From Symbiodinium natans (Eukaryota; Sar; Dinophyceae; Suessiales; Symbiodiniaceae), in contig CAJNDS010000180.1 in the NCBI GenBank assembly GCA_905221605.1, positions 394,501-458,500 of the forward strand: a stretch of 64,000 bases of DNA, in the 5' to 3' direction. Below are positions 36,201-54,500 of this stretch, one piece after another (within the stretch, counting starts at the first letter, position 1; each line of letters begins with the position of its first letter). A program made the position numbers and the translations under genes. A model generated the notes under the pieces. The model was not told the origin of the DNA and ran no database searches. It saw nothing but the letters and a program-made list of their open reading frames with translations.

Positions 36201-36938
36201 CATATACCCCATACTATTATAATCCCTATTGAGGTATGTGAACCTTAAACCCTTTTAGGGTTCATTTCGTTTACAAGGAGAGGGCGGAAGACACTCTCGG
36301 AACCGAGCCGTGCAGTGTGACCGTGGGAAGAGTTTGCCTTGGGTGATTCTCGTGTGTTGCACTCTCTTCGTGCGCATTCTACCCCGGCTACGCGACCAGA
36401 GCCGCATAGCACTGCGCCTGCGAGAGTTCCTGGTGTCACGGAGCTCAGGTAGCGCTAGATGCGGCTTAAAAGACCCAACGCGAAAAGACGAAGTGGAGTG
36501 GGGGCAGGGGGGGCGGGTGGGGAGCTGACCTCGGGCCCCATGCCCCTCGAGAGAGAGAGAGAGAGGCATGCGGTGGAAGGAAGGAAGGAAGACGCGGACA
36601 GAGAAGCCGCAGGGCACGTTTGTGTTCAAGTCGTGCTTTCGTGCAGGGCAGCTCTGCCATCGTTGCGGGCACTGCGATGGGTGGTGCGATCTTTAAAGAG
36701 TAAGGGTTTAGGGCTTAGGATTTAGGGTTAGGGTTTAGCGTTTAGGGTTTATGGTAGCTAGGAACAACACTTCGCCAATCAGATTCCATCAGGGGGCCTC
36801 TAAAGTCTGCGCATCACTGAGGCCGAGCGCAGCGTCCATCGGGATTCCATCCCGTGTCTCTGCTACATGGAGATACGTAAATATGTATATGTATGTATAT
36901 ATATATATTCATATTCTTAATTCTTTCATTGTTACTGT

Positions 36939-36973
<35 letters not shown>

Positions 36974-39900
36974 AATATGTATATATGCATATACACTTAT
37001 ATGTATATCTGTATATACATATATACATATATATATAGAGTATGTTCATTATTATTCTTTATGATCTTATGTCGGGAGAGGGAGAGAGATAGAGTGTTTT
37101 GGATGTTTTGGGTTGCGCTTCGGGCATCAACTCTGGTGAGGGGTGCAGCTTCAGGACCATGATGTGAGTTTCGGAACAGTCCAACATTGGGATGTTCCCC
37201 CTTATGCTAACAGCCCTTGATAGGGATTGTAGTAGCCCTAAACCCTAAACCCTATTAAGGACTGGTAGTATAAGGGGGAACATCCCCAGTTAAACGGCAA
37301 GTCCCAAGAAGGCCGGAAAGCTGTCGAACATGCCAGGAAAATCACCGAAGTATACCTACATGTAGCTCAGGGTCCAGGGTTCCATCGAGTTGAACCCTAA
37401 ACCGTCCCTAAACCCTAAACTGCTACACGGTGTGCTGCCAGAGATCTTCTTCCTCGTCCCCACCCATTTCTGCCCACACTCCTTTACAACGAACAGCATG
37501 GCAACTATGTGCGTAGTTCTCGAAATTAGGGTTCCTTTTGGGGACCCCTTTTTCAAGGCCTCCGCCTTATAACGGGTATCCAGAAAGGGGCCCTAAATTA
37601 GGAAACTACCCATGTGCCTTCTCGGAGAGAGACGGAGAGCAGACTGACCTGAACCCTAAACCCCTAAAACCCCCTAAAAACCGTAAAACCCCTAAAAACC
37701 TAAGGCCCTAAAACCCTCAAACCCTCAGGACCATCTTCCCGCATGCAAAGTCCAACATCGCGGTCGAACTTCAAGTCGTTCAGGGGTTCGCCCAGGCAGG
37801 TGGCAGGAACTAACCCTAGACCTTATGAAGTGGGCGTTTTGGAGGGTTTAGGGTTTAGGGTTTAGGGTTACTTTCTTTGGACATTGAAGCCTTGCCTGTC
37901 GTGCGCGGGCGTGAGCGTCCATGCCCTGCAGACCCTAAACTTTCGGTGGTTTCTTGACTTGCGGCTCTTGAGGAGATACCCTGGCGGTTGGTTGGATGAT
38001 GCAATCCTTGGGGAGGAAATGAACCCTAAAACGGGTTTATGGTTCACATACCTTAATTGGGATTATAGTAGTAGAGGGTATATGACCCCAATTTTAGGGT
38101 TCATTTGGTCCCGAAGGATCTTTGTCATAGTTGGGTGACATGTTCAAGGGTACTTAAACCCAATGAGGTGCATACATTTAGATTTGTAAGACTATCCCAA
38201 CCACTAGCAATGTGGTGCAATCCGACACGTGGGCCGTCGATACCGTTGCTAGTGTGAGAGTTTCTGCTGAGTTCAGTGGCACCTGTGTACGGTTTTTTTC
38301 CAGTCAGCGGCCTGCAGTGTGTCCGAGAAGTCAGCGAGGCAGGTGGCAAGCAAGCCCGCCTTTGTAAATCTGAGTCACATGCCAAGCATTGAATTCTAGC
38401 AAAAGGTTGGCCACAGGGGGCCCATGTTTCGAATATGCAGTGAGGTTCCCAGAAGCCACTTGATACTGGGACCCCAACCAAAATCACGAAGGAGTATTTA
38501 GAGTATTTCAAAGCTGTGTTCTTAGTCGGATTGGCACTCGGCAGGCACTGAACTTCCCAAAGCTACAAGTTGCGTAGCAGCCCGCCGGAGTCTAGTGACC
38601 TACCGCGACCGCTGGCGTAAACGCGGCGCGTTCCCTGCACTGACATGCACATCTGCTGCAAGGGACCGCTCGCCTTCCGCCGTCAGCGGAATGGTAGAAG
38701 GCTCCGTGGCGGCAGTACTTCTCTCCGAAATGGCAGCCTTGCATTGGGCAACTTCTCCAAGCCATGTTCGGCACTGTACCTCACATGCCAACCATGAGCC
38801 CGAGGATTTCGGATCCGCTAGCGCAGTTAAACTTGACAGATGCCCCCGACAACCCTCGACCCCAAACCCTTAACCCTAAAATTCTAATAACCCTAATAAC
38901 CCTAATAACCCTAATAACCCTAATGCCCCCAAATAACCCTAAAAACCCTAATAACCCTAATACCCCTAATAACCCTAATAACCCTAATGACCCTAATAAC
39001 CCTAATAATCCTAATAACCCTAATTAATAACCAAAACCCTGTCCTTCAGGAAGATGGCGCAAGGACCCGCTGCTCCAAAGTATCTCCTCGCAGTCCAGCT
39101 TGAACTCGAGGAGGCCTTTAAACACCTTGTGGGTTTAGGGTTTAGGGTTTAGGGTTTGGGGTTTTAGGGTTTTAGGGTTTAGGGTTTAGGGTTTATTGTC
39201 AAGAAGTCACTAGAGTTTACCGTAGAATTGCATGCTATACATGTGGTTATGCTACATACTATGTATTGTCTATTGTATTATGCATTATATACTATACATA
39301 CATGCATCTGTGGCGGCGACTCTCGACTCGGGCTGGTTGGAGAAGGAGTTTCTGTAAATTATTGCGGCTTAGGGTTTAGGGTTTGGGGTTTGCGCGTTCT
39401 GTGCGTCAGGGCTTTTTCTGGGACTACACGCATCAGCGACTTTTGCTTGTATTGGCCTGCAAGCATCGCATCTCACCCATCCCACCCTCATAGGCCTAAA
39501 CCCTAAACCCTAAACCGCGACAAATCCTAGAAATCCTCCCTGTGCGGCTCGCTCACCCCAAGTATCACCAAGTCGGGGCAGGGGAGACACTGCAGGGCAG
39601 GGGAGGGGCAAACATGCGAACCCAAGCCAATACAGAAAGGAAGGAAGGGCGCAAGAAGGAGCAGTGACCTAGCCGATCCTTGTTCTTGCCACTAGAAGCC
39701 CTCAACCAGAAGCTCTAAACCATACTTTGCATGGGAGGCAGTCCGAAAGCGGCAGTCCAAGAGCACCAGCAATGGTGCAAGGCGCCATCGTCATCGGGTG
39801 TGAGGTCATGCTTGCAGCCTGCCATGCCCTGCTGGCCCCCTAAAGAGAAGCCTCGCAGCTGCCACAGCTGCGAGCACCCCAAATCGCAAGAGCAACGCGG

Positions 39901-42900: not shown

Positions 42901-45900
42901 ACTTGCAACAGCGCTAGGGCCTAAACCCTAAACCCGCAAACCCTGAAGCCCCACCCTAAGAAAAGACAGCCCTTGGCCAGCCCGGGGCATCAAAACCTCC
43001 CAAACCCCAAACCCCAGACCCTAGACCCTAAACCCTAAACCCTAAGCCCTCAACCCTAAACCCTAAACCCTAAACCCTCGCCAAGCAGGCCGGCAACGAT
43101 GCCTCCCCAGCAGCTGCGGCCACTGCCAGGAAAGTCTGAGACGCGGGTGTAGGGAGTAGGGATTAGGGTTTAGGGCTTTTCGGGGGTTTAGGGTTTAGGG
43201 TTTAGGGTTTAGGGTTTAGGGTTTAGGGTTTTTAAGGATTGTTTTATGGATGTTTGAGAGTTTTCAAGGGTTTGTTCAAGGTTTTTGGGGCTACAAGGGG
43301 GCCCAGTTGCGGAAAAAGGGGGCCTGAGGGCTTGCAACAAACAAGAGTCTTTGGACATGGACTCCTGCAAGATTCTTGGTCTAGGGCCGGGCGCGACATT
43401 CCTCCCAAGCTGGTAGGGGTTTTGGGTGTTGGGTTTCGGGTTCTTGGGTTCTTGCGTTCTTGGGTTTTGGGTTTTGGGTTTCAGGGACAGAGGCAAATCG
43501 CACGGCAGTCCGTCCTCAAAAAAAAGGGACAGAGGAGGAGTATATCAGGAAGAGCCTAAACCCAGGATGCCTCGAAGTCCCCGAAACCTTAGCAAGGAGT
43601 AGCAGTTTCAGCGGAATCACCCTAAACCCTAAACCCTAAACCATAAACCCTAAACCCTAAACCCTAAACCCGTTTCAGCTGCGGCCACTTCGCAGGCCCA
43701 ATGCTGTCCAATGCAACCTCTTTTTCACAGTCGAGCGTGAGGTCGTCCAGGCGCTTCCCGGGATGGGGCCAAACACGTTTCGCGCCTACTCTCGGGTGTT
43801 TGCTGCAAGCGTGAGCATCGAAACCGGTCCACGCGAAAATGTACTAAACCCTAAACCCTAAACCCTAAACCCTAAACCCTAAACCCTAAACCCTAAACCC
43901 TAAGCGACGAGGCCTCAGACATCAGCACTTGCTCCCATTCTCACCCTAAACCCTAAACCCTAAACCCTAAACCCTAAACCCTAAACCCTAAACCCTAAAC
44001 CCACTGCGTAACTTCCCCCGGCTCTGTGAAGGCCCTCCACGGTGCTTCCCGCGCAGCTACGGGCAGCACCAGGAAGGGCAACAGGGTTTAGGGTTTAGGG
44101 TTTAGAGTTTAGGGTTAGGGTTTAGCAACAAGAGGGGGGGGGGGAACCACCCAAAGAGACGCCCGGGCCAACTCAGACTCAAAGCTGCCGTGCACAACTA
44201 GGGCTTGGCGTCATTGAGCTCTATTTGCCCTATTCTCCCTTGCACCTAATATTCAACCCCCTCCCCCTACCCCCGAATATTTAACCTCCCCGTATACTAT
44301 GCTACACAACTACAATGGGGGGGGTATTCAATATTGGGGGTGGGGGGGAAAGGATTACTCTTAAACCCCAAACCCTAAATTCTGAACCCTAAACCCTGAA
44401 CCCTAAACCCTAAATTCTGAACCCTAAACCCTAAATTCTGAACCCTAAACCCTAAATTCTGAACCCTAAACCCTAAATTCTGAACCCTAAACCCTAAACC
44501 CTAAGTTCTGAACCCAATTCTTCTCCCTTGCACCAGGCGCCTACACGTACCCAGCCAAGCCCGGCCTCTCACCATTGTCCACTATGAAGCCCTGGGCTCA
44601 GCCGAGAAGCCTGCAAGGTGCCATAGGTTTAGGGTTTAGGGTTTGGGGTTTGGGGTTTAGGGTTTAGGGTTAGGGTTTAGGGGACATTTTCACACTTGCC
44701 CGGATACACCGAGGCCCGCCGTGTCGTTTACGCAGCAGCCACGCGTCTCGGCCCAACTCGAAGCCGGTGCGCCGCAAGCCCGAGGCGCAAGGGATAGGCT
44801 CTTCAATGGAGCTCAACAACGCGCACACCTTGCCGAGCTGTTTTTCGGAACAAAGGCACTAACCTGGGGGGACCAAGGGTTCATATACCCTAGACTACTA
44901 TAATCCCTATTATGGTATATGAACCATAAACCCTTTTGGGGTTCATGTCGTCCCCAAGGAAGAGTTTGGGCCCATCCCACAATCAGAGGCCATTGTGGGC
45001 CTCTGTGGGGTCTCAAAACAATATACGTGCACACACATACATACACATATATGTGTGTGCGTGTATATATATATGTATATAAATAAATATGTATATATAT
45101 ATATATATGTACACATGGATGGCGGTGTCGTGCGTCTCCTCTCTCGTTATCTTCCTCTTTGTCTTTATCGTCTTTCTTTCTCTCTCTGCATATTTGTGTA
45201 TGTAGAAAAATGAACAAATGATTCAGTAAACGAACAAGCAAATATTCAAAGATATATACCCATACACAGATGAGGCCCCAACTCCCCCCCCCCCTCCCAG
45301 GGTGAAATGTTGCGAGCTTTCGGAGCCCGAGGCGTCTACTCTTTGCAGAGCCCATCTGGTCCATCAACAGCGTCCAGCGTGCGCTCGGGCAGGCCCTAAA
45401 CCCTAAACCCTAAACCCTAAACCCTAAACCCTAAACCCCCACGAGGGCCCGCACAACGAAGTCAACTGAGGATGGCCATTACTTGGAGGTTCAGGGTTTA
45501 GGGTTTAGGGTTTACTTGAAGGTTCATGGTACTTTTTAACCAATTATAGCTGTACTTATAACCCAAATTAGAACCACATAAGGGCGTATAAAACTGAGAG
45601 GTTGATTTCTTGGTTCCTGAGCCTAGACTACGAGCGATGCAAGGTCGATAGGGTCTAGGGGGTAGGGTTTAGAGTTTAGGGTTTAGGGTTTAGGGTTTAG
45701 GGACTGAACTTCATGTCGTGTGTATGCCTTGGCCTGGTTATCTGACCTGGTGAACGTAGTGCTGGGCAGGGTGTGACCGGCTGGGTTACTCGTTTACTTC
45801 AGGGTTCGGATGTGTCGGGGTTCCGTTTAACCGTTTAGGGTTTAGGGTGTAGGGTTTAGGTTAACCCCAAACCCTAAACCCTAAACCTTAGCATCATCTT

Positions 45901-48900
45901 TGGGGGTACGTAAGGGAAACCGTTTTCCTACTATATGCTTGTATGAATCACCCCCCAAACCTTACCTCCTGATATGGGCAAGAAGAGGGATTACTATTTT
46001 TCTTTGTTTATATATATATATGTATATATATATATATACGTATATATATATATATATCTATATGTGCACTTTGTGAGTGTAAGGGGGTTACTGCAAGCAA
46101 CTCGTGGAATTTTCTTGGAAATGCCGTATCGAGATGTAAAGATCGAGCCTGGCGTCTTGCGTCCCTAAACCCTAAACCCTAAACCCTAATCCCTAAACCC
46201 TAAACCCTTTTCAGGCCCCAGGTTGCCTGGATGCAGCAGCCACGAGGCGCGGTTTGGGCTTTATTTTGGGATGAACTCCCCCTTGTACTAACACTCTAAA
46301 CCCTGAGCCCTAAATCCCTTCTACTAACAACCCTTAATAGGCATAAGAATCGGGATACTATATAATCCCTATGAAGGACTGTTAGTAGAAGAGGGGACAT
46401 CGCAAGATTCGGGTTCGCTCATTCGGGGTTTAGGGTTTCGGGTTTACCTGGAGTTGTAAGCTTCAGCCTTCTGAGGTGGAGCGAAGGATGTAGGATGTTT
46501 GCAGCACCAAGCTCGCAGGGTCGCAGAATGGGTCCCACTGGTAGGATGCGTCCTGTTCCTGTGAGCAGTGCCATCGAATTCCTGGGCTTCTAGAAGACGG
46601 CTTGAGGGTTGCGAGCTTGCACAAGTGCTTGTGCGAACCTCTAGGCAGTTTCGAACAGAAGGACACAAGGTGTGACCCTGACAACTCAGAAGGTTGTTCG
46701 GCCCTTGGCCGCAAGCTTCCCGAGTGTGTGAACAAATGCTGGAGATGCAGGGGACCGCTAAAATAGAGACCCCGCAACTAGAGGATCTTCTTATTGTAAC
46801 CAGCACCCCAATAAAGGTACCGCGTCGACTTTCGGAAACCCCCCATCCGCATCTTTTTTGCGGAAGCTGACAGAACTTTGCAGCAGCCCGAATTCCTGCC
46901 ATGGTGTGTTCCCTCCGAGACTGAGGATCGGCGCGCCAGTTTCGTGTTTAGGGTTTAGGGTTTAGGCTTAGGGTTTAGGGTTTCCGCGGGCGAGTGCCCT
47001 ACTTCAACCCTTAAGGGCATACAAAGCACATTCGCAGCCCGGAAAGGCATGGACCGTACCGGGAACCGGAGGTTGATGAGGGGCATGATATGGCTCATTC
47101 GTATCTGCTTTTTGCTTAAAGACGCCCTGCCCATGCGAGGAAGATTTTTGTGTGTGTGTTTTTTTGCTGAGGGGGTGGGGGTTCTTGAGCAAATGCGTAG
47201 GTAATAGGAGGTTTACAAACCCACAAGCTCAGGAACAGTGGATCTTGAGGGGCACTCGATCGCTGAGAATTCTAAGAGGTAGGGTGCAGTTCTTGGTTTT
47301 TGCGGTTTAGGGTTTAGGGTTTAGGGTTTAGGGTTTAGGGGATCGTGGGTTCATGGTTGGGCTTACGTTAGGATTCGGGAAGACTCCGCAATACAGATCT
47401 CCGGATCCGGTGCCCGAATTTCAGGGTTTAGGGTTTAGGGTTTAGGGTTTAGGGTTTAGGGTTTAGGGTTTAGGGTGGGGAGGGGGTGGGGGTTCGGGGG
47501 TGCAGCCCGAGAGCCCAGATGCGGCAGTGGTTTTGATGAGTTTTGATGAGTTTGGGCGTTTTTTGAAGTATTGAGGTCTCTTGAAAACCCGCCCTCCAAG
47601 ATTTCCGAAGCCCCCCCTCCGGTTCCAAGGGGTCCTGAACTCTAAACCCTACACCCTAAACCCTAAACCCTAAACCCTAAACCCTAAACCCTCAGCTCGA
47701 TAGGCCCTGCCGACCCGCTGTTGGGCAGCCGCTCCTCGCAGGGCAGCGTCCAGTCCGTCAGGCGAGCCTTGGGGATCTGTTTTTTTTTTTGAACATGATT
47801 GTACTTCTGAGTTTAGGGTTTAGGGTTTTAGGGTTTTAGGGTTTTAGGGTTTAGGGTTTAGGGTTTTAGGGTTTAGGGTTTAGGGTTTGGTGTTTTAGGG
47901 TTTAGGGAGCCTGAAGCAAAGGAGGGTTTTGGGGTTTATCTCTTTGCAGTGTAAAGGATGTACCGGTCTTGTGTCACGAAGGGTTTGTCTCTTGGGATGT
48001 TTCCCCTCATACTACCAATCCTTACTGGGGATTATCATAGGGGGTACCCTAAACTTAAACCCTGAACCCCGTATTATAATCCTTAAGGACTGTTAGTATA
48101 AGCGTGAGTATCCAAGGTTATCTCTTTCGTTGCTTTACCGGTCAGTGTTCGAAGAGGCCTGGATGAGAAAGAACAGGTTGCTTTTTCAGAAGGGTTTAGG
48201 GTTTAGGGTTTAGGGTTTAGGGTTTAGGGTTTAGGGTTTGCTTTGCAGGGTGGACAGGAGGCTCACTGAGTTTGCGGTACCGCTTTCAGAGCCCACCTTT
48301 TCGACACGAAGGGCTTCGCAGAGTTGCTGAAAACGACGGATCAATGCGACCGTGGGGACCAAATGAACCCGAAAATTGGGGTCATATACCCTATACTACT
48401 ATAATCCCTATTAAGGCATATAAACCCTCAACCCTAAACCCTAATCCCTTTTAGGGTTCATTTCGTCCCCAAGGTAGGATTCTTCGGTACGGGTGAGCCG
48501 TGCAGTTGGAAGAGCGCTTGAAGTGTAAGGCGCAGCATCCCAACCCATGGTGTAGGAGCTAGAATAGGGTTTAGGGTTTAGGGTTTAGGCGCTAATAGGG
48601 TTTAGGTAGGGTTTAGGGAGCCCTTGTTGCGGTTTACGGTACATTTTCGTGGATGCATTGAACAAGAGCGATCTATAGAATGACGAGCCAACGTTGCGTT
48701 GCTTTTTGGCTATAGGCCTGCCTCCGGCTCAGCCGCATGCTTGCATGTACCTCCGTTCCGGATATGAACCCACTAAACCCTAAACCCTATGCCATGGCAC
48801 CGTCATCACAGTGGCTGGTCTTCTTGGCCAGTGGCAACAAAAACTATGGCAATTGGGATGTTCCCCCTTAGACTAACAGTCCTTAGTAGAGATTATTATA

Positions 48901-51317
48901 GCAGGGGGTACTATAATCCGAGCTGCTAGTATAAGGGTGAACATCCCAATATGGGCCTGATATACCTGGGAGCAACCCTAAACCTAAACCCTACACCCTA
49001 AAGCCCTAAAACCCTAAAGCCCTAAAGCCCTAAAACCCTAAAACCCTAAAGCCCTAAAACCCTAAAACCCTAAAACCCTAAAACCCTAAAACCCTAAAAC
49101 CCTAAACCCTAAAACCCTAAAACCCTTGCTAACATGCAAATCTCTCGGCCAAGGTTGGTGGCGCAGCCCACCTACGCAGCCAGCCGCGAAGAAGCATTTC
49201 TGTTCCCATTTTTTACTACTAGTAGTATTACTTTTCATTGCTTTTTACTATTACTATTCCTATTACTATTGCTACTACTATTGCTATTTCTATTGCTATG
49301 ACTATTTTCTAACTATTTTCTATTTACTAATTACTAATTACTAACTTCTAATGACTAATGACTCATTTCTAGTTACTAATCATTCATTGCTAATTGCGAA
49401 TTGCTAATTACTAATTGCTAATAACTAGTTACTAATTTCTATCACTAGTTCTATTACTATTGCTGTTGCTGTTACTGTTACTATTATTATTACTAGTACT
49501 AGTTGTGCACATAGTACTAGTGCTACTACCATTACTTTAATTATTACTATTATTATTATGATTATTACTATCACTATTACAGAAATCTTTAAGCCTTAAC
49601 CCCTAAAAGCAAGTTTGTTGGAGGCTTCGGTCTCGGTTTTTTTTGCGAAGTCCCGACAGGTCGTCCCGTCACCATACTGGCAGGAAAGCCCCCTCTTCAG
49701 GGGCCTTCAGGGCTTTTTCAGCTGGTTTGGACAGGATAGGGATTAGAATAGGGGGCACGAGAATCCAGATGAGGGACTGTTCGTATAGTACCCCCTAGTA
49801 TCTTCCCTATGAAGGACTGTTCGTACAAGGGGCCCTGCAAGCCGCCAAAGTCCGAAGTAACCCTTGGAGAAGCGATCCGTGCGCCTGAGGCCCATACCAG
49901 CCAGCACCGTTGATGGGACCCGGAAGACCCCAGGCACATTTAGGGTTTAGGAAGGGTTTAGAGTTTAGAGTTTAGGGTTTAGGGTTTAGGGTTTAGGGTT
50001 TAGGGTGAGTTGACTTTGGGGAAGCTGGGATGGTTCCTCCCTTGTACAAACAGTCCTTAATCGGGATTCCAGCACCCCCTATTTTAATCCCTGTTAAGGA
50101 TGGTGAGTGGGAAGCCTTATCAGAGGCTTTCCCAACAATGACAGCGTTCGACCATTCTCACTGGCCACCCGGTAATGTTGCACCCGCAATGTTCTAGGGG
50201 GACGCTATTATGAAAAGGTTTTCGGCTATTCAGGATCTTGGCCCTTTGTTTTGGGGGTCCGCCAAAATGAAAAGTTTTCGGGCCGCGACTGTTTTTTTGT
50301 AATGGTTTTTGAGGTCCAAGTTCTTGGTTTGAGATCTGATTCAATCTCCTGACCCCTTCCCTGCCTGACTGTTTGGGGTTTTTTAATTCAGGGTCCTCGT
50401 CTGTTTGGGGAGGGTTACATTATTAAAGCAGGTCCAACATTAGTGTTGTTTTTAAGGTTTAGTTTGTTGTTTGTTTTTTGTTTGTTGGGGGGGGGGGGGG
50501 GCTAGGGTTTAGGGTTTAGGGTTTAGGGTTTAGGGTTTAGGGTTTAGGGTTTAGGGTTTAGGCATCAGAGAGCAATGCCACGGTCGCCAGGTCATTGCAC
50601 GACAGAGATGAGTGAGCACGTGAGCGGGATGTGTTACAGGACGTTTGCTCCCGACACGCTGTGTGTGTGATCTGTACACATGGGGATTTCCGAGAATAGG
50701 AGACCCGGGCAGCTTAGTCAAGGGCCCGTATGTGGTACCTCTAATCCCCAGTATATATATATATATAGATCTCTCAGCAGGGTTGTCTCGCAGTGCAGTT
50801 TCGACATTCATCCATGTGCTCAGATCATTCCTGCCAGCCCAATGTCGAATGTACCCATTTTAATTACAACGAGATCCTGGGACCCTCTTGACCAGCAGTT
50901 TTATGGGTTTCTACCGACGAATTCAGGTTAGTTACTACTAAACTGTAGGTAAAGAGGGCCCCAGGTTGAGTTTTTGAGTATCACTTCTACGAACGTAGCT
51001 GAAATCAAGCCGACAGAGCATGTGCTGGCTTGCCAAAGTGTCCATGGTGGTGCGCAGAGCTTTCCTTTGCTGTGCACCAAGTTGTGTGTCTTGTGTGTCG
51101 ATGTGTTGGTAAATATGTAGGCAGAAGATGTACATGTGTTGTCGTCGAAGAAGGCACCGCCGGGCCGCAGGTCCCCAATGCGACTGCCCAGCAGTTTATT
51201 TTCTCGAATTGCTTCTCCAACTTATGGCGGACGTTGAAAAGACGCAAAGGGGCGCAGCAGCCCCAATCAGACCTTAGAGAGCCCCGCCATAACGCCCTTG
51301 TAGAGGACGACGTCTAG
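27135..51317 (+). CDS. Unnamed multi-exon gene region (one or more genes), overview
   Basis: More than 40 candidate + strand exons share the codon bias and AG|G sites of the VPS13-like gene but carry no family signature I can name, except a DysF-like exon at 35.1 kb. They may be a distal part of the VPS13-like protein (some VPS13-family proteins have extra C-terminal modules), a separate DysF protein, or several genes. Acidic and basic low-complexity segments (SSSDEETPS at 27.2 kb; Ala/Ser/Arg-rich exons at 43-48 kb) suggest long disordered linkers. The most likely stop is TAG at 51315-51317. Confidence 0.45.
27526..27632 (+). CDS. Coding exon ending at a family G element
   Basis: GGTAG|, reads TLPGCLPDLKCLLPMPGKEL then AVEFCLVCHLLQCPK with very high GC3; donor ATG|GTATAAGG at the left end of family G. 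Not recognised. Confidence 0.6.
27633..27783. mobile_element. TIR family G element, copy 3, filling an intron
   Basis: GTATAAGGAGCGACCCCTAGAAGGGACCC at the left (quoted in parts), CTGTATACCTAAGTAGCCCC at the right, then TGCTTCAG|. The whole interval between two candidate exons is this element plus AT repeats. Confidence 0.6.
27784..27858 (+). CDS. Candidate exon
   Basis: TGCTTCAG|G, reads VMVLARKSFWIAEVPLRRRE then TRFHQS; stop at about 27859. Good codon bias; frame does not join the previous exon as drawn. Confidence 0.5.
28062..28351 (+). CDS. Candidate exon(s) in a tract-free 1-kb segment
   Basis: A frame reads LIPVRSFYPDAGRSYGNIYE then AKLTTLTAQVASLAVSAS to about 28231. A second frame reads VPLDSSSCVLAMPQARRRLS then QTSAARSLARRE to a strong donor GAG|GTGAGA at 28352. 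Minus frames are also open here; direction is inferred from the neighbours. Confidence 0.4.
28740..28796 (-). repeat. CCCTAAA array followed by GTGCTGTGGCCAGTCGGGTGG
   Basis: Seven units; the adjoining GTGCTG...CGGGTGGCAAAAAA block recurs at about 6846-6910 and 42072-42100, each time next to CCCTAAA units. Confidence 0.8.
28878..28981 (+). CDS. Coding exon
   Basis: CCATTCAG|G, reads IHKHFPIAALKSVKWGPRLN then GARPDLLLEGLVQP; donor CCGG|GTAGGT. Strong exon; family unknown. Confidence 0.7.
29000..29115 (+). repeat. TTTAGGG/TTTGGGG array
   Basis: Alternating runs of GTTTAGG and GTTTGGG within 20 bp of the exon above. Confidence 0.9.
29297..29342 (+). CDS. Possible short exon
   Basis: TCTAAG|G, reads AVEDHSFKTPEIPHT, strong donor ACAG|GTAAGG. 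Confidence 0.45.
29838..29940. mobile_element. TIR family N element, copy 1
   Basis: CCAGAAAGTTGGAACATG at the left and GTTCCAACTTTC at the right; TTTTTGGCGTATGGGGATAAGGATG inside. The second copy at 32.73-32.85 kb has the same ends. Confidence 0.7.
30008..30105. mobile_element. TIR family E element
   Basis: GTTTACGAAAAAAAGGGACC, CCTATAATAGCCC, GGATTCCCTTATAGTAAGG, ACCCCTAATTTCGGAA, then a poly-C run. Confidence 0.65.
30352..30460 (+). CDS. Coding exon
   Basis: AAGCCAAG|G, reads QLFGIKMPWTLDPEMPKAVL then TMLTESLQTGKIQARG; donor GGG|GTAGGG followed by a TTTAGGG/TTTATAGGG array. Very high GC3. Confidence 0.7.
30778..30827 (+). CDS. Possible exon after a clear polypyrimidine acceptor
   Basis: GCCTCTTTTTTAG|A, reads NPVKPTVTRRVLACCH; donor ACC|GTGCCA. 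A second frame is also open. Confidence 0.4.
30941..31063 (+). CDS. Possible exon
   Basis: Frame reads VRVLVLAPHSDDSCGEVEEV then TDVQKWLLDCRDGR, ending at AGGG|GTAGGG. Confidence 0.4.
31216..31318. mobile_element. TIR family A element (putative GA-AG introner)
   Basis: ...CTTGGG|GACGACATGAACCCTA and CAATTTTGGGGTTCATTTGG to TCCCCAAG|. The internal AGGGTTTATGGTTCAT pairs with ATGGCAATTTTGGGG-side sequence as in other copies. Its right edge is the acceptor of the next exon. Confidence 0.75.
31319..31451 (+). CDS. Coding exon starting at a family A element
   Basis: TCCCCAAG|G, reads VCHVRVNAGPCFCCHDSPRV then RQSLMGDELSNPVEVLTRGH; donor CGG|GTCATG. About 72% G/C third positions. Confidence 0.6.
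32731..32846. mobile_element. TIR family N element, copy 2
   Basis: CTCCAGAAAGTCGGAACGTG at the left, GATGTTCCAACCTTCTGGAG at the right; a TTTAGGG unit lies just inside the left arm. Confidence 0.7.
33301..33417 (+). CDS. Coding exon
   Basis: Reads SPHSLAQPRGLEMRHPMLDP then KRFTTPYKKSGPPMKSLK, with about 84% G/C third positions; an overlapping frame is open but less biased. Edges uncertain (possible donor GAA|GTCCTT). Confidence 0.55.
33570..33686. mobile_element. TIR family H element, intact copy
   Basis: GGTCCATGTACCTCAGTATC at the left, TATTTAGGTATATGGACC at the right, with TACTTGGGCC and GGCCCAAGTATTCCC as inner arms. Template for reading the split copy at 3.3-3.6 kb. Confidence 0.75.
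33736..33810. mobile_element. TIR family D element
   Basis: ACCTTTGACTTTTTTGGGAT at the left, AATCCCAAAGGTTAATTC at the right. Confidence 0.55.
33926..33978 (+). CDS. Coding exon
   Basis: AAGCCGCAG|G, reads GTWQLEVDDDETDRALLL; donor TTTT|GTTTTT. It precedes the DysF-like exon by 1.1 kb and could be part of the same domain. Confidence 0.5.
34735..34820 (+). repeat. TTTAGGG array
   Basis: Eleven or so units, near perfect, after GTTTGGGGTGTGGG variants. Confidence 0.9.
34915..35111. mobile_element. TIR family C element with an internal telomere-like block and a duplicated arm
   Basis: GAGGTACTCAGGGTACATATTAACCAACTATGA is followed by a TTCAGGGTTTAGGATTTTGGG block, then a second left arm GAGGTACTTATTCACCAACTATAAC (each quoted as landmarks, imperfect). 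Right arm AATTGGTGAACAAGTACCCT. Ends GACAG| at the DysF-like exon. Confidence 0.65.
35112..35270 (+). CDS. Exon encoding a dysferlin (DysF)-like domain segment
   Basis: CCTGACAG|G, reads DTEGWMYAPIWGSTDWQPEP, then RVLIDAVRKRKWTLTYKLNF, then LANETMLPHV; donor TTA|GTAGGC or CAT|GTCTGC. DysF domains have GW.YA..F....W....... followed by (V/D).VRRR.W; here GWMYAPIWGSTDW and DAVRKRKW match that layout. DysF occurs in ferlins, peroxins (Pex30 type) and TECPR1, at membranes. Which protein this is cannot be told. Confidence 0.7.
35400..35545 (+). repeat. Purine-rich (GAGA/AGAGAG) low-complexity stretch
   Basis: About 145 bp of nearly pure A/G on + just 3' of the DysF-like exon; Arg/Glu-rich frames across it are likely artefacts. 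Confidence 0.85.
35817..35974 (+). CDS. Coding exon with a Pro/Asp-rich start
   Basis: AGAAACCAG|, reads PPDDPDDPDATDRDSMVKQW then QMHQAEQRRWSCSAFSGFAF; strong donor GATTT|GTACGT. Continues the DysF-like protein by position; tryptophans after an acidic linker fit a DysF C-terminal half. Confidence 0.6.
36174..36277. mobile_element. TIR family A element (putative GC-AG introner)
   Basis: ...CTTGGG|GCACCAAATGAACCCT, ATTGGGGTCATATACCCCAT, TATAATCCCTATTGAGG, GGGTTCATTTCGTTTACAAG|. Here the base after GGG is GC instead of GA. Confidence 0.75.
36278..36342 (+). CDS. Coding exon starting at a family A element
   Basis: TTTACAAG|G, reads ERAEDTLGTEPCSVTVGRVC then L; donor TTGG|GTGATT. Good GC3. Confidence 0.55.
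36762..36876 (+). CDS. Probable exon
   Basis: GTAGCTAG|G, reads NNTSPIRFHQGASKVCASLR then PSAASIGIPSRVSATWRY; donor TAC|GTAAAT. Followed by (TA)n and (ATCT)n microsatellites (36.88-37.03 kb). Confidence 0.5.
37187..37288. mobile_element. TIR family B element
   Basis: TTGGGATGTTCCCCCTTATG, CTAACAGCCCTTGATAGGGA, a short CCCTAAACCCTAAACC insert, ATTAAGGACTGGTAGTATAA, GGGGGAACATCCCC. Flanks AGTCCAAC/AGTTAAAC resemble a decayed TSD. Confidence 0.75.
37505..37612. mobile_element. TIR element (family R), single copy
   Basis: GTAGTTCTCGAAATTAGGGT at the left, CCCTAAATTAGGAAACTACC at the right, with TTCCTTTTGGGGACCCC and CCAGAAAGGGGCC inside. Confidence 0.55.
37729..37799 (+). CDS. Coding exon
   Basis: ACCCTCAG|G, reads TIFPHAKSNIAVELQVVQGF then AQA; donor GCAG|GTGGCA. 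Confidence 0.65.
37932..38012 (+). CDS. Coding exon ending in GGG before a family A element
   Basis: GCCCTGCAG|, reads TLNFRWFLDLRLLRRYPGGW then LDDAILG, phase 0, followed by |GAGGAAATGAACCC. The open frame runs into the element; a GA donor directly after GGG fits. Confidence 0.6.
38013..38116. mobile_element. TIR family A element (putative GA-AG introner)
   Basis: |GAGGAAATGAACCCTAAAA, GGGTTTATGGTTCACATACC, GGGTATATGACCCC, AATTTTAGGGTTCATTTGGT, CCCGAAG|. A family K element starts 7 nt later. Confidence 0.8.
38124..38205. mobile_element. TIR family K element, copy 1
   Basis: GTCATAGTTGGGTGACATGT, CTTAAACCCAATGAGG, ACTATCCCAACCAC. GGTTGGGATAG-type right end pairs with CATAGTTGGG. Copy 2 at 53.67 kb. 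Confidence 0.6.
38878..39030 (-). repeat. Variant array (AATAACCCT)n
   Basis: About 15 copies of a 9-mer CCCTAATAA (telomere unit plus TA) with CCCTAATGA/CCCCTAATA variants; unlike the heptamer arrays elsewhere. Confidence 0.95.
39050..39132 (+). CDS. Coding exon with a telomere-type donor
   Basis: GTCCTTCAG|G, reads KMAQGPAAPKYLLAVQLELE then EAFKHLV; donor GG|GTTTAGGG. Confidence 0.6.
39410..39489 (+). CDS. Probable exon
   Basis: GTGCGTCAG|G, reads GFFWDYTHQRLLLVLACKHR then ISPIPPS to a TAG at about 39490; may end earlier at CTT|GTATTG. Confidence 0.45.
39745..39995 (+). CDS. Possible long exon, Cys- and Pro-containing
   Basis: Frame reads AVQEHQQWCKAPSSSGVRSC, CWPPKEKPRSCHSCEHPKSQ, RVLCPAGPSFSSFSSQPGTR. 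GC3 about 62%; the CxxC-like spacing is suggestive only. No confident splice sites. Confidence 0.35.
40054..40158 (+). CDS. Probable exon
   Basis: TTGGCAAG|CT, reads VDTAKCQAGMFTTKLQRFDL then GMPRFMPRCISHLP; donor CTG|GTCAGA. Confidence 0.5.
40718..40792. mobile_element. TIR family I-like element
   Basis: GGCCCTTATTGCCTTTTTTT to ACCAAAAAGGGCACCCTTTT around TCCCTTATAATCCCCTTAAA. Confidence 0.45.
41200..41294. mobile_element. TIR family M element, copy 2
   Basis: ACTATATCCCCCTTGGGGAT at the left; AAGGTTCTAAGGGGAGTATA at the right, as at 4.3 kb. Confidence 0.5.
41415..41636 (+). CDS. Probable long exon
   Basis: TCCTCGCAG|G, reads VLLSVRPAPTQKTSERLVYG, LRIRSMSMNQFLETVYLERM, QRVAASLPNAHHPTPAKKHP; GC3 about 68%. 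TAA at 41634-41636; may be spliced at ACC|GTATAC (41517). Preceded by a degenerate CACTTGGGA minisatellite (41318-41400). Confidence 0.55.
42002..42050 (+). CDS. Coding exon
   Basis: GACTTCAG|CC, reads CDVVIFKQLFSADPLN with almost uniform GC3, then TAG; donor unclear. Confidence 0.45.
42535..42640. repeat. (AATGTATAAAT)n-type AT-rich minisatellite
   Basis: About nine copies of TATAAATAATG/TATAAATATG. Confidence 0.85.
42700..42760 (+). CDS. Coding exon
   Basis: CCTTCCCAG|G, reads ADAEPHVAIQQLRREAWACW; donor TGG|GTGCTT. Confidence 0.55.
42806..42872 (+). repeat. TTTAGGG array
   Basis: Nine perfect units. Confidence 0.95.
43089..43133 (+). CDS. Ala-rich micro-exon (repeat unit 1)
   Basis: CCAAGCAG|G, exactly 15 codons AGNDASPAAAATARK, donor AAA|GTCTGA, phase 0/0. 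Resembles the exons at 44032 and 46215 in sequence and layout. Confidence 0.6.
43679..43795 (+). CDS. Ser/Arg-rich exon (motif SSVRSSRR)
   Basis: CGTTTCAG|C, reads CGHFAGPMLSNATSFSQSSV then RSSRRFPGWGQTRFAPTL; donor CGG|GTGTTT. Aligns by eye with exons at 47696 (SSQGSVQSVRRALG) and 45301 (SGPSTASSVRSGR). Confidence 0.6.
43845..44002 (-). repeat. CCCTAAA arrays (two blocks)
   Basis: Blocks 43845-43902 and 43944-44002, separated by GCGACGAGGCCTCAGACATC-type unique sequence. Confidence 0.95.
44032..44085 (+). CDS. Ala/Thr/Arg-rich exon (repeat unit 2) with a telomere-type donor
   Basis: CTGTGAAG|G, exactly 18 codons ALHGASRAATGSTRKGNR, donor AGG|GTTTAGGG. Confidence 0.65.
44240..44358. mobile_element. 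TIR family O element, copy 2
   Basis: CACCTAATATTCAACCCCCT, CCCCCTACCCCCGAATATTT at the left; GGGGTATTCAATATTGGGGG to GGGGAAAGGATTAC at the right. Confidence 0.7.
44365..44512 (-). repeat. Higher-order array (CCCTAAATTCTGAA)n
   Basis: Alternation of CCCTAAA and TTCTGAA units in a 21-bp period repeated about six times: a higher-order variant of the telomere array. Confidence 0.9.
44537..44626 (+). CDS. Coding exon with a telomere-type donor
   Basis: TGCACCAG|GC, reads AYTYPAKPGLSPLSTMKPWA then QPRSLQGAI; donor ATAG|GTTTAGGG. Confidence 0.6.
44714..44870 (+). CDS. Coding exon ending in GGG before a family A element
   Basis: ACACCGAG|G, reads PAVSFTQQPRVSAQLEAGAP, QARGARDRLFNGAQQRAHLA, ELFFGTKALTWG. 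The last GGG codon is followed by |GACCAAGGG. Splicing there joins phase 0 to phase 0 with the next exon. Confidence 0.7.
44871..44958. mobile_element. TIR family A element acting as an 88-bp GA-AG intron
   Basis: |GACCAAGGGTTCATATACCC ... TTTTGGGGTTCATGTCGTCC CCAAG|. Both neighbours are strong exons with matching phase, and no GT donor gives an open join. The clearest candidate introner here. Confidence 0.8.
44959..45009 (+). CDS. Coding exon between introns
   Basis: TCCCCAAG|G, exactly 17 codons EEFGPIPQSEAIVGLCG, donor GGG|GTCTCA, phase 0/0. Confidence 0.65.
45301..45392 (+). CDS. Coding exon with a GC donor leading into CCCTAAA
   Basis: CCCTCCCAG|G, reads GEMLRAFGARGVYSLQSPSG then PSTASSVRSG; ends GGCAG|GCCCTAAACCC, so the intron begins with GC from the telomere array. 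Phase 0 start matches the previous exon. Confidence 0.65.
45482..45610. mobile_element. TIR family C element, left arm split by a telomere-type block
   Basis: ACTTGGAGGTTCAGGG (45481-45496), then TTTAGGG units, then a second left end ACTTGAAGGTTCATGG (45514-45529) that continues into TAACCAATTATAGCTGTACT. The right end is degenerate. Confidence 0.7.
46215..46251 (+). CDS. Ala-rich micro-exon (repeat unit 3)
   Basis: CTTTTCAG|G, reads APGCLDAAATRR, donor CG|GTTTGG. Same AAAT(A)R(K/R) ending as unit 1. Confidence 0.5.
46266..46405. mobile_element. TIR family B element split by a telomere-like block
   Basis: TTGGGATGAACTCCCCCTTG at the left; ACTGTTAGTAGAAGAGGGGA at the right. CCCTTGTACTAACA (46280-46293) and CCCTTCTACTAACA (46316-46329) flank an inserted CTCTAAACCCTGAGCCCTAA block. 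Confidence 0.7.
46440..46905. other. Tract-poor segment with open frames on the minus strand, unassigned
   Basis: About 460 bp with minus-strand frames of 104-152 codons and no clear + exon. A family E element lies at about 46752-46848 (TAGAGACCCCGCAACTAGAG ... TCGGAAACCCCC), so a continuous minus gene is unlikely. Confidence 0.35.
47038..47145 (+). CDS. Candidate exon with a hydrophobic stretch
   Basis: CATTCGCAG|CC, reads RKGMDRTGNRRLMRGMIWLI then RICFLLKDALPMRG, GC3-rich. MIWLIRICFLL could be a membrane or buried segment. Confidence 0.45.
47696..47778 (+). CDS. Ser/Arg-rich exon (SVQSVRR motif)
   Basis: CCCTCAG|C, reads SIGPADPLLGSRSSQGSVQS then VRRALGI; donor ATCT|GTTTTT. Aligns with the exon at 43679. 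Confidence 0.55.
47812..47910 (+). repeat. TTTAGGG/TTTTAGGG array
   Basis: Mixed heptamers and octamers. Confidence 0.9.
47992..48115. mobile_element. TIR family B element
   Basis: TTGGGATGTTTCCCCTCATA, CCAATCCTTACTGGGGATTA, ATCCTTAAGGACTGTTAGTA, GTGAGTATCCAAG. A short CCTAAACTTAAACCC block is inside. Flanks GGTTTGTCTC and GGTTATCTCT resemble a decayed TSD. Confidence 0.65.
48290..48356 (+). CDS. Coding exon ending in GGG before a family A element
   Basis: CGCTTTCAG|A, reads AHLFDTKGFAELLKTTDQCD then RG with very high GC3; followed by |GACCAAATGAACCC. Confidence 0.65.
48357..48473. mobile_element. TIR family A element (putative 117-bp GA-AG introner)
   Basis: |GACCAAATGAACCCGAAAAT, TTGGGGTCATATACCC, an internal CCCTCAACCCTAAACCC block, GGGTTCATTTCGTCCCCAAG|. 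Phase 0 on both sides if GA is the donor. Confidence 0.75.
48474..48492 (+). CDS. Possible 19-nt micro-exon
   Basis: CCCCAAG| VGFFGT, donor ACGG|GTGAGC. Confidence 0.4.
48853..48949. mobile_element. TIR family B element, well preserved
   Basis: TTGGGATGTTCCCCCTTAGA, CAGTCCTTAGTAGAGATTAT, CTGCTAGTATAAGGGTGAAC, ATCCCAA; flanks TATGGCAA/TATGGGCC suggest a decayed 8-bp TSD. Confidence 0.75.
48971..49130 (-). repeat. Octamer array (CCCTAAAA / CCCTAAAG)n
   Basis: About 20 units, mostly 8-mers. Confidence 0.95.
49154..49201 (+). CDS. Probable exon
   Basis: GGCCAAG|G, reads LVAQPTYAASREEAF; donor TTTCT|GTTCCC. Confidence 0.5.
49205..49590. repeat. Long TTACTA/CTATTA trinucleotide-like microsatellite
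   Basis: About 380 bp of degenerate (ACT)/(ATT) units, like 10.27-10.53 kb. Confidence 0.9.
49660..49724 (+). CDS. Coding exon
   Basis: CCCGACAG|G, reads VVPSPYWQESPLFRGLQGFF then S; donor CTG|GTTTGG. A truncated family B copy (49731-49835) follows. Confidence 0.6.
49842..49908 (+). CDS. Probable exon
   Basis: CCTGCAAG|, reads PPKSEVTLGEAIRAPEAHTS then QH; donor CACC|GTTGAT. Confidence 0.5.
50838..50926 (+). CDS. Probable exon
   Basis: CTGCCAG|C, reads PMSNVPILITTRSWDPLDQQ then FYGFLPTNS; strong donor TTCAG|GTTAGT. Confidence 0.55.
51171..51317 (+). CDS. Probable 3'-terminal exon with stop codon
   Basis: GGGCCGCAG|G, reads VPNATAQQFIFSNCFSNLWR, TLKRRKGAQQPQSDLREPRH, NALVEDDV, then TAG (51315-51317). 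No good donor precedes the stop, so this may be the end of a gene. Confidence 0.55.
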   Translation, partial: VPNATAQQFIFSNCFSNLWRTLKRRKGAQQPQSDLREPRHNALVEDDV

Positions 51318-51539: not shown

Positions 51540-54500
51540 GTGATTTTAGGGTTTAGGGTTTCGGGTTTAGGGTTTAGGGTTTTAGGGTTTTAGGGTTTTA
51601 GGGTTTAGGGTTTAGGGTTTAGGGTTTCAGGTTTATGTTCTGGAGCTCTCGGAAGCCTTCGTGCCAGTACCTGGACCTTTTTTGGGCGGCTTGGTTTGGG
51701 TCTTCTTGAGGAGCGCCGCCCTCAGTAGGGAAGGTGCCCGAGCTTTAGGCGCCAGCTTCCGGGGCCCTAAACCCTAAACCCTAAACCCTAAACCCTGAAC
51801 CCTGAACCCTGAACCCTGAACCCTGAACCCTGAACCCTGAACCCTAAACCCTAAACCCTGTGCCGTGCCATACCCAGTCACGTTGGGCGTTTAGGGTTTA
51901 GGGTGCAGGGTTTTGGGGCTGCTACCTATAGAGATTGCTACACGCCTTGGGGACGAAATGAACCCTAAAAGGGTTTCTGGTTCATATACCTTAATAGGGG
52001 ATTATAGTAGTATGGGGTATATGACCCCAATTTTAGGGTTCATTTAGTCCCCAAGGTGAGCATATATCCTACGCACAGCGATTTCACAGGTGAATATGGT
52101 GCAAGCCATTCATGCTGTCATCATGTGCATGAACCCTTTCCCTCTTCTCAGGGCTGCCTTCAGTGACTTGCACGATAGTAGGGAACACGCTGCGTATGGC
52201 GTTCCTGCCATAGCATTCGCGCACGCGCTTTTTGGGCTCGAGATGTATCACGGCTGCTGCTTCAGTTTAGGGCTACGAATACCGGGCCCCTCGCTGATTC
52301 ACGTGGCAGACATTGTCAAGGGCCCCCTTGGCGGACAAAGGCCCAAACAGCCTGGGAATCTGAGGGGCTGGGAAGCTATAACCTTTAACCTTTGGGGTTA
52401 CCTTCAATAAGCTTTAACAGGGTTAACCTTTAACCTTTTGGGTTACCTTTGATAATACTATTACAAGTAAAGGGCTAACCTTTCTTGGGCTAGGGTTGCC
52501 AGCCCCCCGCAGGATTGTGGGTTTAGGACCTCAGGTAAATTTTAGCGCTTCGAGGTTGTGGCGGGGCGCCATTTTGGGTTTATTGGGTTTCTTAAGAAGG
52601 CAGCTAAAAATTAAATTACAGCTGCCCTGCTAAGTGCAGCCAAGTGAAGATGCTGAAAGGGTAGCTTGGGTGCAACAGCTATGATCTGCCCCCATGCTTT
52701 ATCAATCATTGGAAGCAAAAAGGGGTTCACAAAAGACAAGGCAACTTGACCCAGATGTAGCACATCCCTTTGGCGTTGGCGTTGCGTATACGGAGCCTTA
52801 CCCAAATAGACATGAACCCTAAACCTTCAACCCTAAACCCTAAACCCTGATATGTAGCTAAAGGGTACCTAGATATGTTCGGCCGTCAGGCTTCACCATA
52901 GCGCTCCCACAGGGGAAGAGGCCCGTGAATCTTGAGCCTGCACTCCGTGTCTCCATGTGCTGTGGAGTGCTCTCTGAGGGTTTAGGGTTTAGGGTTCAGG
53001 TTTTAGGATGTTTTAGGGTGTTCTGTGAAACTCTGAGCAGGTGATCCAGTCGTGGTTGGGAAAAGCTGGGTGGCAGGATTTTGTGCCAGTCCGCATTCAC
53101 ATTGAGATTTCTGCAACTGTCCTGGGAGGCATGGGCTCATGCGCCGCTGCCCTGAGCGGAAAGAATAAGGTTCAACCGGAGGACGAGGCGCCAGCGAAGA
53201 CAAAAATGTTTTGGAGAAATCAGAGTGGGTGTGGCAAGCAAAAGTTGGCCAGAGTCTGTAGTATCTTGGTTTCGTGGCATGTGCGTGCGCCTTCCCAGCG
53301 GAAACCTCCAGTCGTCAGATCTCATCAACCCAAGCTGTCATAAAGTGGCAAGAGCATGAGGGCCTAGCGGTAGTTCAACTGTCGTTCCACGCCCCTTGCC
53401 CGCAGGACTACCATCGCGTTGCCGGGGCCTCGAGTTGCTTTCACGCTGTCTCAGGAGCAAGCTCCATATGGGTGGTTGACAAAATGATGATCCCTTTTGG
53501 GGTACCCTAAATATAAGGTGCTGTATTATAATAGGGATCCAAAAAGGGACCATCATTTAGACAACCACCCATATGCAAACGAAAGCTTCGAGAGTCCTGA
53601 ATCGCAGATCGAGCCCCACCATGTATGCCACGCGTGACTTTGTAGATGGACTGTGACGAAACTCCTTGTCATAGTGGGGTAACATGTTAGATTTTTAAGG
53701 GTACTTGAACTCAATAAGGAAGAGGAATGTACATGTTTAGTACTATCCCAACCATGAACTAGGTTTAGGCTAAACCCTAAGCCCTAAACCCTAAACCCTA
53801 AACCCTCGGAAACTGATCTGGGCGTGTTTGCGACAGGTGCCTGGTCCCGCCACCCGGCAGCAAGCTCGAGCATGTGCTCACGTCACAACGCAGGCAAACA
53901 CCATCTTCGGCTTGCCTACGAGTTGCTTAAGAACCCCCCCCCCCCCCCCCACAAAAAAAGAGACAATATTCCCTTTATTTCCCTTATTAAAAGAATATGT
54001 ATTACTATGATTACTGTTATTATTATGTTTTTTGTTTTTTTTGGTGGGGGGGGGGTTCTTAAGCAAATAGTAGTTGCTGGGGGTGAGGGACCAGGGGTTC
54101 AACAGGCACTGTGACAGCAATATAGGACACGCCCTTCGGATTCTTGCAACGCAAGATGTCACACAGCAGTTTTTGCTGAAGTCCCAAAGTTTCAAGAGGA
54201 GCAACCGGACAATGCATGGGGACGCACCTTGTTGTGGGACTGCCGAGATGACATGCATTACTATTACAATAATTAGCATCTCTATTCTTGTATACTGTCT
54301 TTATTATCATTGCTGTGTGTGATTCTTATTATGATTGTTGTTCTTATTTCTTTTAATTGTAATTACACTGAGGCGCCAGACGCAGGCTTCGATGGGGGGC
54401 GCCGGGCTTAGTTGACCGATATTGACGTGCTTGATGAGCTTGCAGCCCTACCTCCCCCTCCCTCCTCCTCGGTCCCCCTCTCTCGTCTCTCCTCCACTTG

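Follow-up and report, generated by a model that had tools for sequence, protein, structure and literature searches.

The window analysed here, a 64,000-nucleotide stretch of a Symbiodinium natans contig, contains seven copies of an inverted-repeat element, family A, between 24,996 and 52,056 (25.0-52.1 kb), and part of a gene resembling cGMP-dependent protein kinases (PKG). The terminal ends of family A read CCTTGGGGAC...GTCCCCAAGG, with CCTTGG...CCAAGG as the outermost bases at both sides, and the right ends of the window copies carry CCCCAAGG or a variant. A repeated element had been recognized at these places in an earlier note, and the search bears this out: GGGGACGACATGAACC, allowing up to three mismatches, has 11 matches in the window vs a mean of 0.61 and a maximum of 4 in shuffled sequence, and seven full copies are present. 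That note placed the start of the element at GAC. The terminal repeat instead begins 7 bases further left (CCTTGGG|GAC), or 8 at 44871, and the supposed exon ending in GGG therefore ends in element sequence.

A 2-bp direct repeat lies outside the ends of five of the seven window copies. These are 24996-25225 (230 bp, AA/AA, preceded by G), 31209-31319 (TA/TA, preceded by G, opposite orientation), 36167-36278 (plus strand, AG/AG, preceded by T), 38006-38117 (minus strand, AT/AT, preceded by A) and 44863-44959 (plus strand, AA/AA, preceded by T; previously given as 44871-44958), the last having an altered and shortened left end, CCTGGGGGGAC. Flanks are mismatched at 48350-48474 (plus strand, GA/TA, preceded by C) and 51945-52056 (minus strand, CG/TG, preceded by A).

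The PKG-like gene served as a control. It comprises nine exon pieces on the plus strand (55808-60652), which, once joined, have PDB matches among cGMP-dependent protein kinases (E 3.7e-35 over query residues 12-166), the best of them presumably apicomplexan PKGs. Homology places five introns, which account for ten of the exon boundaries; the remaining eight are tentative, and the last piece (60548-60652) was called by eye outside the PDB match. The five introns are GA-AG, GC-AG, GT-AG, GC-AG and GT-AG; GA and GC donors are thus nothing unusual here. In each, the donor dinucleotide is repeated after the acceptor AG, the exact bases being chosen within the limits set by homology. One of the gene's introns, of 106 bases (59403-59508), reads GTAA CTTAG...CTAAG GTAA, with short inverted ends, a 4-bp direct repeat and GT-AG boundaries, and looks like an introner of another family.

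Other repeats are also present. A second inverted-repeat family (GGGATGTTCCCCCTTATACTAACAGTCC...) occupies 37189-37286, 48852-48950, 57006-57173 and 58431-58513, and also occurs at 24476 and 46318; a PKG-like intron of 530 bases encloses its copy at 57006, away from the intron ends. A third, with ends CTTGGAGGTTCAGGGTACTT, is found at 3440-3577, 8813-8952 and 61494-61644, and one of its copies lies directly downstream of the PKG-like exon pieces. Telomere-type TTTAGGG/CCCTAAA runs are widely scattered, as seen across 24-54 kb, and make up many of the long inverted repeats. A coding-like stretch at 35109-35300 (EGWMYAPIWGSTDWQ...AVRKRKW), which may resemble a dysferlin-type domain, had no Pfam match in six-frame scans. 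Such scans of 24-54 kb found nothing at E 1 or E 10; in the kinase gene this kind of scan did detect two pieces, one at 58.2 kb (E 0.22) and one at 59.5 kb (E 0.033). The window contains no Rfam match at the gathering threshold and no predicted tRNA. One pattern had no match in IMG/VR, while two others had 15-base matches in 38 and at least 120 stretches; in the records of the 38, neither a telomere-type run nor a second end motif was present. A 21-base pattern had no match in GTDB contigs.

Genome-wide copies and their target sites

To place the window copies in context, the genome assembly was searched (759 Mb, 2,543 contigs). The 13-base end motif GACCAAATGAACC has 680 + 690 = 1,370 matches vs 8 + 7 = 15 for its reversed control, and the 20-base end CCTTGGGGACCAAATGAACC has 224 + 223 (447) vs none. 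A first set of stretches was taken around places among 100 listed of the 1,370 motif matches, the window included. Both ends were found in 80 copies, with an exact 2-bp repeat in 39, a 3-bp repeat in 6 and a 4-bp repeat in 1. The second set covered 60 of 100 listed places out of the 447 perfect ends; both ends were found in 44, of which 24 have the 2-bp repeat, and the right end was absent within 280 bp for the remaining 16. Pooling both sets and adding the window copy at 44863, 65 of 125 copies with both ends have a 2-bp target-site duplication and 60 lack a perfect one; in the first set the proportion is 24/35 among copies with clean ends. No two of the 125 elements are identical. Terminal inverted repeats and a target-site duplication are both features of MITEs, or non-autonomous TIR transposons. 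Among the copies examined, none was autonomous.

The duplicated dinucleotides are 85% A or T, and the first target base, both strands pooled and counted from the duplications, is approximately 38% A, 47% T, 12% C and 4% G. A G immediately before the duplication is weakly enriched (43/130 sampled flanks, P 0.024). Genome-wide it precedes only 128 of the 447 perfect ends, and most copies are therefore not introns; the majority are not demonstrably exonic.

Proposed intron boundaries at family A insertions

Copies with a G before the repeat read exon|GNN CCTTGG...CCCCAAG|GNN exon, an arrangement in which excision recreates the empty site exactly. Thirteen introns at 12 loci were picked by eye because their translation looked like a domain or their codon score was high, not all of them anchored by homology. 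All follow exon|GNN CCTTGG (CCCTGG once)...AAG (TAG once)|GNN, having been selected under that same rule, with one-base end variants at L186 and L201. Their donors are GA in 6, GT in 6 and GC in 1, and the element lies forward with respect to the gene in 10 and reverse in 3, although this assignment is weak for L186, L191_419 and L241. A third set was chosen beforehand by the GNN rule, as 20 of the 128 G-preceded places. The right end was absent in 4 of these, and 8 of the 16 with both ends have the duplication. Six of the 8 score at least 14, with 3 GA, 1 GT and 2 GC donors. The 19 putative introns together, chosen by domain or codon score, have 9 GA, 7 GT, 3 GC and 0 GG donors. The earlier note had proposed GA and GC donors: these indeed appear to be used, but the donor lies in the target rather than in the element. 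One locus, L191, carries two family A introns (209-318 and 419-548) approximately 100 bases apart in a single SAM-like gene, one donor being GT and the other GA.

These data suggest, with a probability of roughly 0.88, that family A is a TIR transposon that becomes an intron when it lands at G-NN, taking its acceptor from the element and its donor from the target. The element would be non-autonomous and MITE-like, with many copies of approximately 110 bp, and would target and duplicate a mostly AT-rich NN. Landing in a coding exon at G-NN would yield ...G NN CCTTGGGG...CCCCAAG G NN..., from which the spliceosome would excise GNN plus the element minus its final G. The donor would then be the target G with the first target base (GA, GT or GC), and the acceptor the element's own AAG (AAG|G). 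The element's last G would stand in for the target G, so that the mRNA would be restored exactly, and the palindromic ends would thus offer an acceptor in either orientation. We infer that such introns are spliced and that a transposase moves the element.

We assessed coding potential across restored junctions with codon-score models. A coding model self-trained on 254 kb converged on simple repeats, and exon-trained models took its place. The initial model drew on 201 codons from the nine PKG-like exon pieces in the window. With the kinase-gene model, the 28 rule-fitting strands of the first set, where the rule was discovered, differ from the other 50 (P 0.0012), as do the 15 fitting strands of the fresh second set from the other 33 (P 0.0098). 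In a larger model (693 training codons, each training copy left out in turn) the median is 9.6 on rule-fitting strands (n 43) vs 3.8 on others (n 87; P 9.6e-6). Scores of at least 20 occur on 9/43 vs 0/87 strands, of at least 15 on 13/43 vs 3/87, and of at least 10 on 20/43 vs 13/87. Random joins have a median of 2.4 and 90th, 95th and 99th percentiles of 7.3, 10.1 and 15.2. For the five homology-anchored PKG-like introns the scores are 16.7-39.2, obtained with the earlier model, whose training codons came from the exons of the same gene. Strand specificity of the score is not strong: L321 of the third set reaches 20.8 on the wrong strand. Two third-set copies without the duplication, L323 and L334, score 18.6 and 14.5.

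Within the window, the rule is followed on the plus strand by two copies only, those at 25 and 31 kb. The first is a candidate introner intron at 24993-25224 (GAA CCTTGG...CCCCAAG|GAA, GA-AG), with a restored join scoring 9.6 vs a random 95th percentile of 10.1. The second, at 31206-31318 (GTA CCTTGG...CCCCAAG|GTA, GT-AG), scores 7.9 on the plus strand, entirely from its right side, and 9.1 on the minus strand. These are the copies whose "similar right ends" had been read as acceptors at 25219 and 31318; both do fit the intron rule, but their coding support is marginal at the first and one-sided at the second. An earlier search for G[T/C/A]...AG pairs near the ends placed none of the seven window copies above the random 95th percentile in total score, whereas its weaker-side score gave P 0.037 at 25 kb and P 0.026 at 31 kb. 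The copy at 38006 fits the rule on the minus strand only, and its restored join there scores 3.1, which is no coding support. The copies at 36167, 44863, 48350 and 51945 do not fit. The remaining copies of the window look like non-intron copies, or copies within non-coding DNA.

The five copies previously named as having GA or GC donors (36174, 38013, 44871, 48357 and 51952) are all among these: on the plus strand none fits the rule, and at no copy are the exons convincing on both sides. Strong exons had been described around 44871, where the proposed join scores 1.5 and the joined peptide has no Pfam match (E 0.5). The join proposed at 48357 scores 7.4 (left 5.8, right 1.6), near the 90th percentile of random joins; those at 51952 (1.4) and 38013 (2.2) resemble random joins, and the one at 36174 scores 5.1 with nothing on its left side. 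The copies at 44863, 48350 and 51945 could instead be old introns whose splice sites have drifted, with some of the previously described exons real and spliced elsewhere. The left flank at 48350 is coding-like, in a frame other than the one described, its restored join scores 8.9, and a GA donor at 48348 with a TAG acceptor at 48477 would join open frames. The search ranks other pairs higher, however, neither joined peptide matches Pfam, and the total scores lie in the upper tail of random positions with none past the 95th percentile; we consider such drift unlikely.

Beyond the window, restored frames run ungapped through the junction, in the alignments as printed, in a subtilase (L309, GT donor, E 4e-23) and a CDK-like kinase (L264, GT, E 5.7e-10), and in a pyruvate kinase (L336, GA) with 1.2e-6 in PDB (ungapped) and 2.4e-7 in Pfam. 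Pfam matches also span the junction for ankyrin at L186 (GA, 1.8e-6) and L339 (GT, 7.5e-9) and for DUF4116 at L263 (GT, 2.1e-9). The element, its 2-bp duplication and the exact restoration of these conserved frames can all be read directly from the DNA. Weaker matches span the junction at L200 (Band_7 0.045), L229 (Peptidase_M2 0.1) and L191 (SAM 0.12); L200 also has a weak stomatin match (0.27). At L237 an HRDC match (0.12) falls on the rule-fitting strand. At L200 a NUP210 domain match (0.3) does not span the junction, and at L229 a PDB neurolysin match (0.14) begins past it. On non-fitting strands the matches were DUF3915 (0.094) and ArgoL2 (0.15), neither across its junction. Three third-set loci chosen by score (L325, L326 and L328) have no Pfam match.

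A pooled Pfam scan took 113 junction-spanning frames, the best per strand and open for at least 22 residues; they represent 61 of the 65 copies with the duplication, and 41 lie on rule-fitting strands. Below E 0.05 five copies have a match (L309, L263, L264, L186 and L200), and each of these matches falls on a rule-fitting strand and spans its junction. A further match, to MGS_GT (0.016), straddles two unrelated pieces and was discarded as an artefact of pooling. The family is thus found as putative introns in unrelated genes, with subtilase, kinase, pyruvate kinase, ankyrin and DUF4116 domains among those hit by the 13 + 6 introns, and with boundaries set by the element end and the insertion site. 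The proposal of an introner family is supported by the ungapped frames of the subtilase, CDK-like kinase and pyruvate kinase, which are restored exactly.

A MITE confined to non-coding DNA or to the depths of longer introns, with exon joins arising by chance, would account for the absence of a coding join in most sampled copies, and the different inverted-repeat family at 57006 does sit within a longer intron in this way. It would leave unexplained the ungapped subtilase, kinase and pyruvate kinase matches over the exact junction and the confinement of scores of at least 20 to rule-fitting strands, and we regard it as very improbable.

The notion that the element supplies the AAG acceptor agrees with the restored joins, which appear to end at the element's AAG|G. 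The companion notion, that the element fixes both splice sites, does not hold: the donor is made up of the target G followed by the first duplicated base, and at a CCTTGGG|GAC end this lies 10 bases to the left of the site proposed. A GGG|GAC donor would not keep the frame. In each of the 13 copies tested it leaves a 10-nt scar (10 mod 3 = 1), consisting of 7 bases of the element together with its last G and the duplication, and in 9 of the 13 the best join then scores 1.0 or less on one side (full model without leave-out); at L241, the exception, the GGG|GAC join scores 14.3 vs 12.1 restored. A GGG|GAC donor and an AAG acceptor both fixed by the element is a very improbable reading: there are short open frames beside some copies and GA donors do occur in this genome, but the scar is out of frame throughout, nearly all of one side's score is lost in most copies, and at the named copies the scores are no better than those of random joins, with 48357 close to the 90th percentile. 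The pyruvate kinase points to GA donors working in conserved enzymes without the element supplying them.

With the donor recruited from the target, the second donor base varies with the insertion site while the next bases are nearly fixed (CCTTGGGG), and family A therefore provides a natural test of which 5' splice sites are acceptable to the dinoflagellate spliceosome when an intron is new. It is conceivable, though doubtful, that in a newborn intron the spliceosome ignores the second donor base altogether, with GA, GT and GC used in proportion to their supply by insertion. If so, a palindromic stem ending at the acceptor would help to place the junction, and the genome-wide excess of GC donors (58%, as tabulated in PMC10666404) must arise later or through other families. 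Owing to the inverted repeats, the predicted RNA folds of the 31 kb candidate and L200 form a single long stem (z -6.0 and -7.3), of which the 3' strand ends exactly at the acceptor and the 5' strand begins four bases past the donor G. We infer that this stem may aid splicing, as the account of Amoebophrya in PMC7789003 proposes for its introner elements.

Relationship to known introners

Published values for S. natans give GT 23.6, GC 58 and GA 18.4% of donors and AGG at 97.1% of acceptors (PMC10666404). Gozashti et al. 2022 (PMC9860276) describe introners in Symbiodinium microadriaticum that have inverted repeats and 4-bp duplications; the 3' site is their own, and the duplication supplies the 5' site. 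Since introners with a donor from the target and an acceptor from the element are thus described for Symbiodinium, the kind to which family A belongs is known: it shares with them the terminal inverted repeats, the duplication, a 3' site of its own and a 5' site recruited from the target. As far as the descriptions of the two families allow comparison, they differ in the length of the duplication, 4 bp in S. microadriaticum and 2 bp here, and in that the donor G of family A lies one base outside the duplication and is replaced by the last base of the element. The same account mentions introner families with up to 40% GA donors and reports that most of its families leave mRNA length unchanged (PMC9860276).

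Like the dinoflagellate introners of Roy et al. 2023, as cited in PMC11453091, family A represents recent insertions in a dinoflagellate. That source attributes 15 introner families with at least 100 introns each to Polarella glacialis, and family A may already be within the list of Roy et al. 2023. The introner elements of Amoebophrya, as presented by Farhat et al. 2021 (PMC7789003), resemble family A in their inverted repeats at the intron ends, their hairpin, their boundary direct repeats and their non-GT donors. Those elements have direct repeats of 3-5 nt and highly variable splice dinucleotides, whereas family A follows one rule, G[A/T/C]...AG|G. The introners described for Aureococcus sp. 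(PMC9860276) carry both splice sites, as the earlier note had proposed for family A. In that case the element adds 12 bp in frame, unlike the 10-nt, out-of-frame scar that the proposed donor would leave here. What is new in family A is therefore in the detail: a 2-bp duplication, a donor G outside it that is replaced by the element's last G, and GA donors at least as frequent as GT among the 19 introns. For one introner family, it spells out a rule by which introns would be born: a dinucleotide behind a G is duplicated, the element contributes the acceptor and the target contributes the donor.
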